A stretch of DNA of 64,000 nt from Thermosinus carboxydivorans Nor1 (lineage in GTDB: Bacteria > Bacillota > Negativicutes > Sporomusales > Thermosinaceae). Of the stretch, positions 30,353 through 43,008 are shown piece by piece; position 1 is the first letter of the stretch, and each line of letters begins with the position of its first letter. A model generated the notes under the pieces. The model searched no databases. It worked only from the letters and a program-made list of their open reading frames with translations, and was not told the DNA's origin. The translations under genes were made by a program, and so were the position numbers. The stretch spans positions 62,001 through 126,000 of the forward strand of contig NZ_AAWL01000004.1 in NCBI RefSeq assembly GCF_000169155.1. The letters are read 5' to 3'.

Positions 30353-30496
30353 TTATGTAATCCTCCTCATTTTTAAAAATGCGGCATTTGCTGGTTTTTC
30401 ATTGTTAGTATTGCCGAATTTGGCATAATAGAGTCAATTCAGCTATGCCATGCATAATATGATACCATAATTGCCAAACAAACACAAGCAACACGG

Positions 30497-41309: not shown

Positions 41310-41339
41310 TTCACCCTATTTTACCCTTGTGCATATTAT
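41310..41339 (+). promoter_or_regulatory. Candidate promoter of the repeat-peptide gene
   Basis: TTCACC (41310-41315), 18-base spacer, TATTAT (41334-41339), about 50 bases before the GTG start. The -35 is a weak match. Confidence 0.5.
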
Positions 41340-41389
41340 GTAACTAGAACGGGTAACCACCCGCAAAATCGGGGAGGTGAAATTAGGCA

Positions 41390-41653
41390 GTGGCTGATAA
41401 AAGAAAGCGCCCTCCTTGGGATGTCCCTGAAATTGATGACTGGAATTGGGACGAAGAGGAGGCAATGCGCGCCGGTGAGCGCCAATGCGTTCCTTTCTTC
41501 GGGTTGGGAATTGGTCTAGGCTTTATACTAGGCAATTGCCGCCCTCGTTTTGCCTGCCGTCCCCGCTACTGGTGGTATGGCTGTCGTCCTTACTTCTGGG
41601 GAGGTTACAGCTGCCGTCCCTATTACTGGGGCTATGGCTGCCTTCCTTTTTAA
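41390..41653 (+). CDS. Cys/Tyr/Trp-rich repeat peptide, candidate radical-SAM substrate
   Basis: 87 residues from a GTG with GGGGAGGTG 11 bases upstream. Residues 1-32 are charged and leader-like, rich in Asp, Glu, Trp and Arg. Residues 34-48 are a Gly-zipper-like hydrophobic stretch (GLGIGLGFILG). The C-terminal 38 residues hold five of the six cysteines (50, 56, 65, 75, 84), each but the last followed by Arg-Pro. The repeats read CRPRYWWYG, CRPYFWGGYS and CRPYYWGYG, ending CLPF. No family is recognised. A terminator-like hairpin and then a radical SAM/SPASM gene follow, so it looks like a precursor peptide. A small surface or spore-coat-like protein is the alternative. Confidence 0.72.
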   Translation: MADKRKRPPWDVPEIDDWNWDEEEAMRAGERQCVPFFGLGIGLGFILGNCRPRFACRPRYWWYGCRPYFWGGYSCRPYYWGYGCLPF

Positions 41654-41676
41654 AACTTCATATTCCCCTTTCTCCC

Positions 41677-41700
41677 TGCGCCGCAAGCGGCGCCTTTTTT
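41677..41700 (+). terminator. Terminator/attenuator between peptide and radical SAM genes
   Basis: GCGCCGC and GCGGCGC (41678-41684, 41687-41693) form a compact stem followed by CTTTTTT. Partial termination here would give more peptide than enzyme, as is common in peptide-natural-product operons. Confidence 0.8.
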
Positions 41701-41766
41701 CTCTCCGCACCCCTACTGGCGCCGCCGCATATGATGTAGAAAAATGCGCTAAAGGAGGACAGTTCT

Positions 41767-43008
41767 TTGTATTATCGCCTTCACCCCTACTGCTACCTTG
41801 TCCGCGGGGCCAAGCGCGGCGCCATCTACAACCTGCAGACCGGCAAGGTGCATTCTATCAATAAAGGTGCCGTTGATTTTCTCTTTGCCTGCGAAAATAG
41901 TGCCCTGGAAGATCTGCTCGACCTCGCTTTGCCGGAAAACAAGCCGCAGCTGGCTTTTCTCGACAAGCTAACGGCCATGGGTCTGGGCTCGTTTTACCTG
42001 AGCCAACCGGCCGAGCGTCCGGCGCCGCCTCAAGTCGCGCCGCCCAAGCTGGAATTTGTCTGGCTGGAACTTACCGCGAGCTGCAATAACCGTTGCCTGC
42101 ACTGCTACGCTACCAGCGGCCCCTGTGCCGGCTACGACGCCGTGCCCCACGACCGCTGGCTGTCCCTTATCACCGAAGCCCGGCAGGCCGGCGCCACGGC
42201 CATTCAGTTTATCGGCGGCGAGCCGCTGCTCTACCCCCGATGGCAAGAGTTAGCCCAGCGCGCCCGCCAGGACGGCTATGAATTCATTGAAATTTTTACG
42301 AACGCCACCCTCATTGACGACGACTGTATAAAGTTTGTTAAAGACAACCAAATCAATATTGCCACGACCATTTACGCCGCCAATGCTGCCGTCCATGACC
42401 GCGTCACCTTAAACCCCGGCAGCTTCAATCAGACGATGGCCGCCGTCCGTAAACTGTTGGCCGCCGGTGTACCTTTGCGCATCGCTTCCATTATCATGAA
42501 GGCCAATGAGGAAGAAGCTGAAAACATTATGAAACTATGCGAAGAATTAGGCGTGGAAGTGACGCCGCCTGACGTCGTTCGCCCCACCGGCCGCGGTGAC
42601 AATAGCAAGCTGCTACCGGACAAATACCAAAAGCCTCCCATCAGACCGCCCTTTTTCACCGATGAGGAAAGCTTTTTCCGGGCCCAGTGCTATCACTCTT
42701 GTTTAGCCGGCAAAATTGCCATTACCGCCGCCGGTGACGTCATTCCCTGCATTTTCGCACGCGACCAGCTATGCGGCAATATTCTCCGCCAATCACTGGC
42801 TACCATCCTGGCAGGTCAAAAACTTGAGCAATGCTGGCGCACCACTAAGGACCAAGTGGAAAAGTGCCAGGACTGCGAATATCGCTACGCCTGCACCGAT
42901 TGCCGTCCGCTGGCCCAGGGAAGCGATACCGCCAAACGTTGGCTCGCCTGCTCAAATGATTGCGACTATAATCCTTATACCGGAAACTGGAAAACGATTA
43001 AAGAGTGA
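41767..43008 (+). CDS. Radical SAM/SPASM peptide-maturase-like protein
   Basis: 413 residues from a TTG, chosen because AAAGGAGG lies eight bases before it. Residues ~1-85 form a small domain (YLVRGAKRGAIYNLQTGKVH and following helices) compatible with a PqqD-like peptide-recognition element. The radical SAM motif CNNRCLHC is at Cys106/110/113, with GGEPLL near residue 157. The C-terminal SPASM region is cysteine-rich: CYHSCLAG, CIFARDQLCGN, CQDCEYRYACTDC and CSNDC, enough for two auxiliary Fe-S clusters. Such enzymes form thioether or carbon-carbon bonds in ribosomal peptides. The neighbouring Cys-rich peptide is the obvious substrate. Its product is unknown. Confidence 0.87.
   Translation: MYYRLHPYCYLVRGAKRGAIYNLQTGKVHSINKGAVDFLFACENSALEDLLDLALPENKPQLAFLDKLTAMGLGSFYLSQPAERPAPPQVAPPKLEFVWLELTASCNNRCLHCYATSGPCAGYDAVPHDRWLSLITEARQAGATAIQFIGGEPLLYPRWQELAQRARQDGYEFIEIFTNATLIDDDCIKFVKDNQINIATTIYAANAAVHDRVTLNPGSFNQTMAAVRKLLAAGVPLRIASIIMKANEEEAENIMKLCEELGVEVTPPDVVRPTGRGDNSKLLPDKYQKPPIRPPFFTDEESFFRAQCYHSCLAGKIAITAAGDVIPCIFARDQLCGNILRQSLATILAGQKLEQCWRTTKDQVEKCQDCEYRYACTDCRPLAQGSDTAKRWLACSNDCDYNPYTGNWKTIKE

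Follow-up and report, generated by a model that had tools for sequence, protein, structure and literature searches.

How does a spore-forming bacterium employ a small protein made of repeated Cys-X-Pro (CxP) units that is encoded next to a radical enzyme? This question is raised by a locus of Thermosinus carboxydivorans Nor1, which we analysed within a stretch of 64,000 nucleotides (contig NZ_AAWL01000004.1, positions 62,001 to 126,000), hereafter the window, to which all coordinates refer unless stated otherwise. The initial annotation, made from the sequence alone, had described an 87-residue peptide with three aromatic Cys-Arg-Pro repeats, a terminator-like hairpin and a radical SAM/SPASM gene with a PqqD-like N-terminal domain. 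It had proposed a ribosomally synthesized and modified (RiPP-like) system with an attenuator between the two genes, in which cysteines or aromatic residues would be crosslinked.

The peptide and the enzyme are probably encoded in two transcription units

To answer this question, we first sought to establish whether both genes are real, and the observation of the initial annotation was borne out. The peptide gene is an open reading frame on the + strand with a GTG start (41390-41653, 87 aa), preceded by a ribosome binding site at 41371-41379 (GGGGAGGTG). The peptide has a charged leader, a glycine-rich hydrophobic stretch (41495-41536; FFGLGIGLGFILGN) and the C-terminal end CLPF as described. 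However, the repeat is better written as C-x-P, as the "CRP-aromatic" form is a local version. All six cysteines (C33, C50, C56, C65, C75 and C84; core at 41486-41650) lie in CxP motifs, i.e., one CVP, four CRP and one CLP. Shuffling the same residues 200,000 times never gave six such motifs and gave five in 1 of 100,000. Relatives of the peptide were found in 31 of 100 related genomes at E<=0.01.

The enzyme gene lies on the same strand with a TTG start (41767-43008, 413 aa) and a ribosome binding site at 41751-41759 (AAAGGAGGA). The protein matches the Pfam families Radical_SAM (4.6e-20) and SPASM (9e-9). The radical SAM cluster motif CNNRCLHC (42082-42105; C106, C110 and C113) and the seven cysteines of the SPASM domain (42700-42963; C312, C328, C367, C370, C376, C379 and C399) are invariant in 17 orthologues. 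Judging from the family, the SPASM domain is expected to hold two auxiliary Fe-S clusters.

Between the two genes, we found a GC stem of six pairs (GCGCCG-CAAG-CGGCGC) followed by a T-run (41678-41700; -11.2 kcal/mol, z -3.5). Just downstream of it lies a promoter-like element of the enzyme gene (41709-41736), and a further one precedes the peptide gene (41313-41340; both described below). The hairpin looks like an intrinsic terminator between two separately promoted units and not like an attenuator. The two promoters, a WxxP motif in the leader and the operon partner that usually follows the enzyme in relatives had not been noticed in the initial annotation.

The enzyme carries a predicted RiPP recognition element

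Orthologues of the enzyme (51-97% identical and nearly all of full length) occur in 50 of 100 genomes searched, including the window's own, and the named ones include species of Sporomusa, Pelosinus, Lucifera and Anaerospora. A scan of genome contigs with the single protein returned nothing, whereas the profile scan worked. One strong copy lies outside Negativicutes, in Ruminiclostridium sufflavum; this enzyme is 61% identical, has an upstream CxP ORF and was possibly acquired by horizontal transfer. Distant relatives (34-46% identity) are present in Clostridia, Latescibacterota, Woesebacteria and a Deltaproteobacterium. In a phylum sample of 398 genomes, only one other, weak match was found.

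Next, we modelled the N-terminal 89 residues with AlphaFold2 employing 31 relatives, which yielded a confident fold (pLDDT 91.6, pTM 0.78). A Foldseek search of the PDB returned RiPP proteins for all of its first 17 hits, the best being the lasso-peptide protein TbiB1 bound to its leader (TM 0.71, E 3.4e-3). Residues 1-78 (41767-42000) are therefore predicted to form a PqqD-like RiPP recognition element (RRE). The full-length model aligns best to SkfB and SuiB with CteB close behind, although it is weak outside the N-terminus (pLDDT 64.8), with a C-terminal half of low confidence. The enzyme falls far below the cut-off of every NCBIfam maturase model listed.

Two classes of precursors share a leader and CxP cores

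To identify the partners of the enzyme, we inspected 30 related enzyme loci. In 25 of these, a CxP ORF lies within about 150 nt of the enzyme. In 23 loci it follows the enzyme on the same strand, usually after 3-45 nt, with one of them (locus L026) having only three motifs, while in two, including the window, it precedes the enzyme. The downstream partners carry up to 26 CxP units and a leader of the form KRPKWExPEMxDWDDD. A second class is mostly unlinked to the enzyme and shows a Gly-rich hydrophobic stretch and mostly C-[YRWF]-P-R repeats; the window peptide belongs to this class. Both classes share the leader, in which W10 and P13 are invariant in 23 aligned precursors. In the window peptide, this motif reads W10-D-V-P13 (41417-41428). 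WxxP followed by x-hydrophobic is the leader motif bound by RREs of Bacillota lasso peptides (PMC13381572), and we propose it as the RRE-binding site.

The window peptide is not the standard partner, as most relatives use another CxP precursor just downstream plus unlinked paralogues. The genome studied here encodes a second precursor elsewhere (contig 2, loci L119/L133). In the sister species (genome G001), the window peptide gene is largely deleted, while the enzyme is 97% identical and intact, so that the enzyme must serve other substrates there. Most precursors would act in trans.

We then analysed 53 non-redundant precursors. In this set, which was chosen for CxP content, 603 of 616 cysteines lie in the motif, the Cys spacing is mostly 4 to 7, and 24 precursors have an odd number of cysteines. 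Position +1 and all flanks from -5 to +7 carry only 0.4-1.4 bits, apart from C and P. This speaks for a cysteine-centred modification recognised through Pro at +2 and against obligatory pairing with a fixed partner. As X and the flanks are free, the Tyr/Trp crosslinking considered in the initial annotation has no special support.

The window peptide matches nothing in Pfam or NCBIfam, no curated family covers the precursors, and no known precursor or maturase family reached its cut-off in NCBIfam. Likewise, literature searches on Cys-X-Pro repeats with radical SAM enzymes and on radical SAM enzymes in spore coats found no precedent in the open-access literature, most subscription journals being outside their reach. 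While the system is RiPP-like in its general kind, the precursor class, the repeat, the deployment in sporulation and the probable structural role are new to our knowledge.

Enzyme and precursors occur together

To test the specificity of the pairing, we searched for ORFs with six or more CxP motifs. Such an ORF lies in 24/30 near and 7/9 distant enzyme loci, but in 0/11 loci of unrelated radical SAM genes and in 1/60 yabG or sigK/sigE loci. Even enzymes of 34-42% identity in other phyla have a CxP ORF beside them. The two distant loci without one (L087 and L093) have the enzyme at a contig end. Across 250 sampled genomes of the class, enzyme and precursor family are both present in 48, the enzyme alone in 2, the precursor alone in 2 and neither in 198 (Fisher p 2e-46). 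The two genomes with a precursor but no close enzyme (G020 and G089) are drafts of 85-87% completeness. Distant branches use other leaders, including double-glycine-like ones (EKLTDEQLDKVSGG), with the same CxP cores. Two outcomes had been named beforehand as speaking against the RiPP-like reading, namely a peptide that occurs widely without the enzyme, or an enzyme N-terminus lacking an RRE fold with homologues that pair with unrelated peptides; neither was observed.

The system follows endospore formation

The initial annotation had not noticed the sporulation context. Using SpoIVA as a marker of endospore formation, we found that 47 of the 250 genomes have both SpoIVA and the enzyme, 3 the enzyme alone (65%, 93% and 83% complete), 5 SpoIVA alone and 195 neither (p 2e-41). 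Large genomes without SpoIVA (G033, G036, G042 and G048) also lack the enzyme, so genome size is not the reason. On an rpoB tree of 60 genomes, 9 of 11 inferred SpoIVA losses fall on branches that also lose the enzyme. However, this single-gene tree is poorly supported and rooted at its midpoint, and only two independent pairs remain on well-supported branches, where the sign test cannot be significant. The SpoIVA-positive lineages G002 and G032/G050 (94-99% complete) lack both enzyme and precursors, so the system is not essential for sporulation. Moreover, distant relatives live in phyla not known for endospores (Latescibacterota, Woesebacteria, Deltaproteobacteria), so sporulation is a use in one lineage and not a property of the family.

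Independently, both window genes are preceded by a sigma-K-type promoter, with AC at -35, a spacer of 17 nt and CATATTATG before the peptide gene (41313-41340) or CATATGATG before the enzyme gene (41709-41736). In C. difficile and B. subtilis, sigma-K promoters have AC at -35 and a CATA-type -10 box (consensus AC / CATATAAT), and the sigK gene itself has one in C. difficile (PMC3789822). The motif before the window genes matches this consensus in form, spacing and position. The motif AC-N16-18-CATAnnnT, mostly ending in ATG and mostly located 55-85 nt before the start codon, precedes 35/40 enzyme orthologues and 22/31 unlinked precursor genes, against 11/263 other genes in the same loci. As a positive control, 18/21 sigK genes of these relatives carry it in the same place (p <=4e-18 for each of the three groups, although upstream regions of orthologues are not independent samples). 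In contrast, sigE lacks it (0/9), and yabG, meant as a further sigma-K control, mostly does so (4/30). Only one other match exists in the window on both strands (2432-2459), which lies inside an opposite-strand ORF and was taken as chance. The exact 9-mer CATATTATG is not clearly enriched over the whole genome (26 sites against 19 of the reversed pattern), so it alone does not define the regulon, and it is the full motif with the -35 AC and its position that does the work. A sigma-A-type promoter was weak and not enriched before the enzyme.

In inspecting sigK, we observed that it is matched only up to about residue 142-157 in many relatives (G006, G007, G008, G009, G011, G013, G017, G019, G023, G025, G028, G031, G038, G049 and G055). 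This suggests a skin-like insertion that splits sigK at a constant place in Negativicutes, while the window's own genome has an intact sigK (G000, contig 6, 89483-90148).

A proposed model for precursor modification in the mother cell

We consider it likely, though not certain, that this is a RiPP-like protein-modification system used late in sporulation by spore-forming Negativicutes. In this view, a sigma-K-type RNA polymerase would transcribe both genes from separate promoters in the mother cell. The RRE would bind the precursor leader through WxxP, and the radical SAM/SPASM core would then modify the cysteines of the CxP repeats one after another. The modified proteins would be laid down as part of the spore coat or exosporium. 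One enzyme would serve several precursors, in this genome the window peptide and the second one encoded elsewhere. The sequences themselves show the pairing and co-occurrence of enzyme and precursors, the RRE fold (as a prediction), the WxxP leader, CxP as the only constant core feature, the promoter motif and the co-occurrence with sporulation. In contrast, leader binding, the modification, expression under sigK and the location on the spore are inferred. The interpretation of the initial annotation is thus partly supported: a RiPP-like precursor/maturase pair outside the known precursor classes holds, and its suggestion that the product stays on or in the cell is strengthened by the sporulation link, whereas attenuation and a special role of aromatic residues are not supported.

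A hint for a surface role comes from the Deltaproteobacterial precursor (locus L094, 5277-5846), which has a Tat-like N-terminus and a C-terminal PG_binding_1 domain (2e-14) after its CxP array, as expected for a wall-bound structural protein. No leader protease or exporter gene, which are usual but not universal in RRE-dependent RiPP systems, is adjacent to the pair in the window or in typical relatives; this covers neighbouring genes only, so that unlinked ones cannot be excluded, and a mother-cell product may not need them.

RiPP enzymes are mostly studied as makers of secreted small molecules. Here, one appears to be a conserved, usually single-copy and developmentally timed gene with many structural repeat proteins as substrates, suggesting RiPP chemistry as a building method for spores. 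This gives a testable link between radical SAM chemistry and endospore architecture in spore-forming Negativicutes, and the regular CxP array makes the chemistry easy to read by mass spectrometry. A more far-reaching version, which is possible but tentative, is that the enzyme modifies every CxP cysteine along long repeat proteins by a reaction not yet described for such arrays, building a covalently altered layer of the endospore surface in Negativicutes, with the same enzyme-substrate logic serving other purposes in unrelated phyla.

Alternative readings

Within this model, thioether formation as put forward in the initial annotation survives best, although it remains tentative. Here, each CxP cysteine would be linked, perhaps with free acceptor choice, to a backbone or side-chain position (sactionine or ranthionine), giving a stapled coat peptide. 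The closest solved structures are the thioether synthases SkfB and CteB and the cyclase SuiB, and Cys-rich cores with RRE-SPASM enzymes are the usual setting for thioethers. However, no acceptor residue is conserved at any fixed distance, and all sactipeptide maturase models are far below cut-off (AlbA 62 of 850 bits, SkfB 60 of 300, StsB 99 of 625).

A formylglycine-like version of the model, in which each CxP cysteine is oxidised to an aldehyde that could then cross-link the coat, is unlikely. The anaerobic sulfatase-maturating enzyme (anSME) targets the Cys beta-H (PMC8326336). Its site in sulfatases is C-x-P/A-x-R, and no other Cys-x-Pro motif is known to be read by a SPASM enzyme. The conservation of only C and P and the common odd Cys numbers fit a modification that needs no partner. 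However, Arg at +4 is found in only 9% of Negativicutes repeats, and the enzyme scores 51.6 bits against a cut-off of 349 for anSME (TIGR03942) and does not resemble it more than other SPASM enzymes.

Similarly unlikely is a sporulation-timed antimicrobial or killing factor like SkfA. The closest structure is SkfB, and a distant paralogue of the enzyme in G003, G010 and G020 (loci L278, L279 and L280) lies behind several tandem small ORFs with double-glycine-like leaders and CxP cores, although no ABC transporter was recognised there within the 16 kb read. Against this reading stand the lack of a transporter, protease or immunity gene beside the pair, precursors scattered over the chromosome with many paralogues, repeat arrays of up to 26 CxP and a late mother-cell promoter type. 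Finally, that CxP proteins are merely disulfide- or metal-bound coat proteins, akin to Cys-rich coat proteins of other spore formers, with the enzyme acting on something else, is the least likely reading given the operon-like adjacency, the precise co-occurrence including in distant phyla and the RRE domain with a matching leader motif, even though the modification is so far inferred only.

Comparison with related systems

The sactipeptide and ranthipeptide maturases SkfB, AlbA and CteB share the layout of RRE, radical SAM and SPASM, a Cys-rich substrate and a small precursor beside one enzyme. The present enzyme differs by its low identity of about 17%, a substrate with a long CxP array and a WxxP leader, the lack of an adjacent transporter or protease and a sporulation-type promoter. 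The His-Xaa-Ser system also pairs a tripeptide-repeat protein (HxsA) with radical SAM maturation, and the C-terminal domain of the L094 precursor even matches the HxsA model (E 2e-7). However, the repeat here is C-x-P and not H-x-S, there is one enzyme and not two, and the HxsB and HxsC models were not reached. In the TvgA/TvgB system, a radical SAM enzyme likewise acts on a tandem-repeat precursor (PMC9062424), but it forms cyclopropylglycine from Val in an unrelated TVGG repeat and is accompanied by oxygenase, peptidase and transporter genes. anSME is also a SPASM enzyme, which reads a Cys-x-Pro(/Ala) motif and attacks the Cys beta-carbon, but it acts on a single site in a sulfatase and needs Arg at +4. 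The grasp-with-spasm maturase (TIGR04193) has a similar SPASM domain (93.4 bits over residues 299-409), yet this is below the cut-off of 175, no ATP-grasp partner was seen in the neighbourhood and the precursors differ.

In Latescibacterota, an HprK-related kinase (TIGR04352-like, below cut-off) follows the CxP-type radical SAM enzyme (locus L087, 1601-2437, with similar ORFs in L089 and L093), hinting at a phosphorylated product. In the genome studied here, the trigger factor gene (locus L139; contig 4, 92453-92461, corresponding to about 30453-30461 of the window, - strand) lies about 11 kb from the enzyme, whereas in most relatives it is the divergent neighbour of the enzyme, so the locus was rearranged here.
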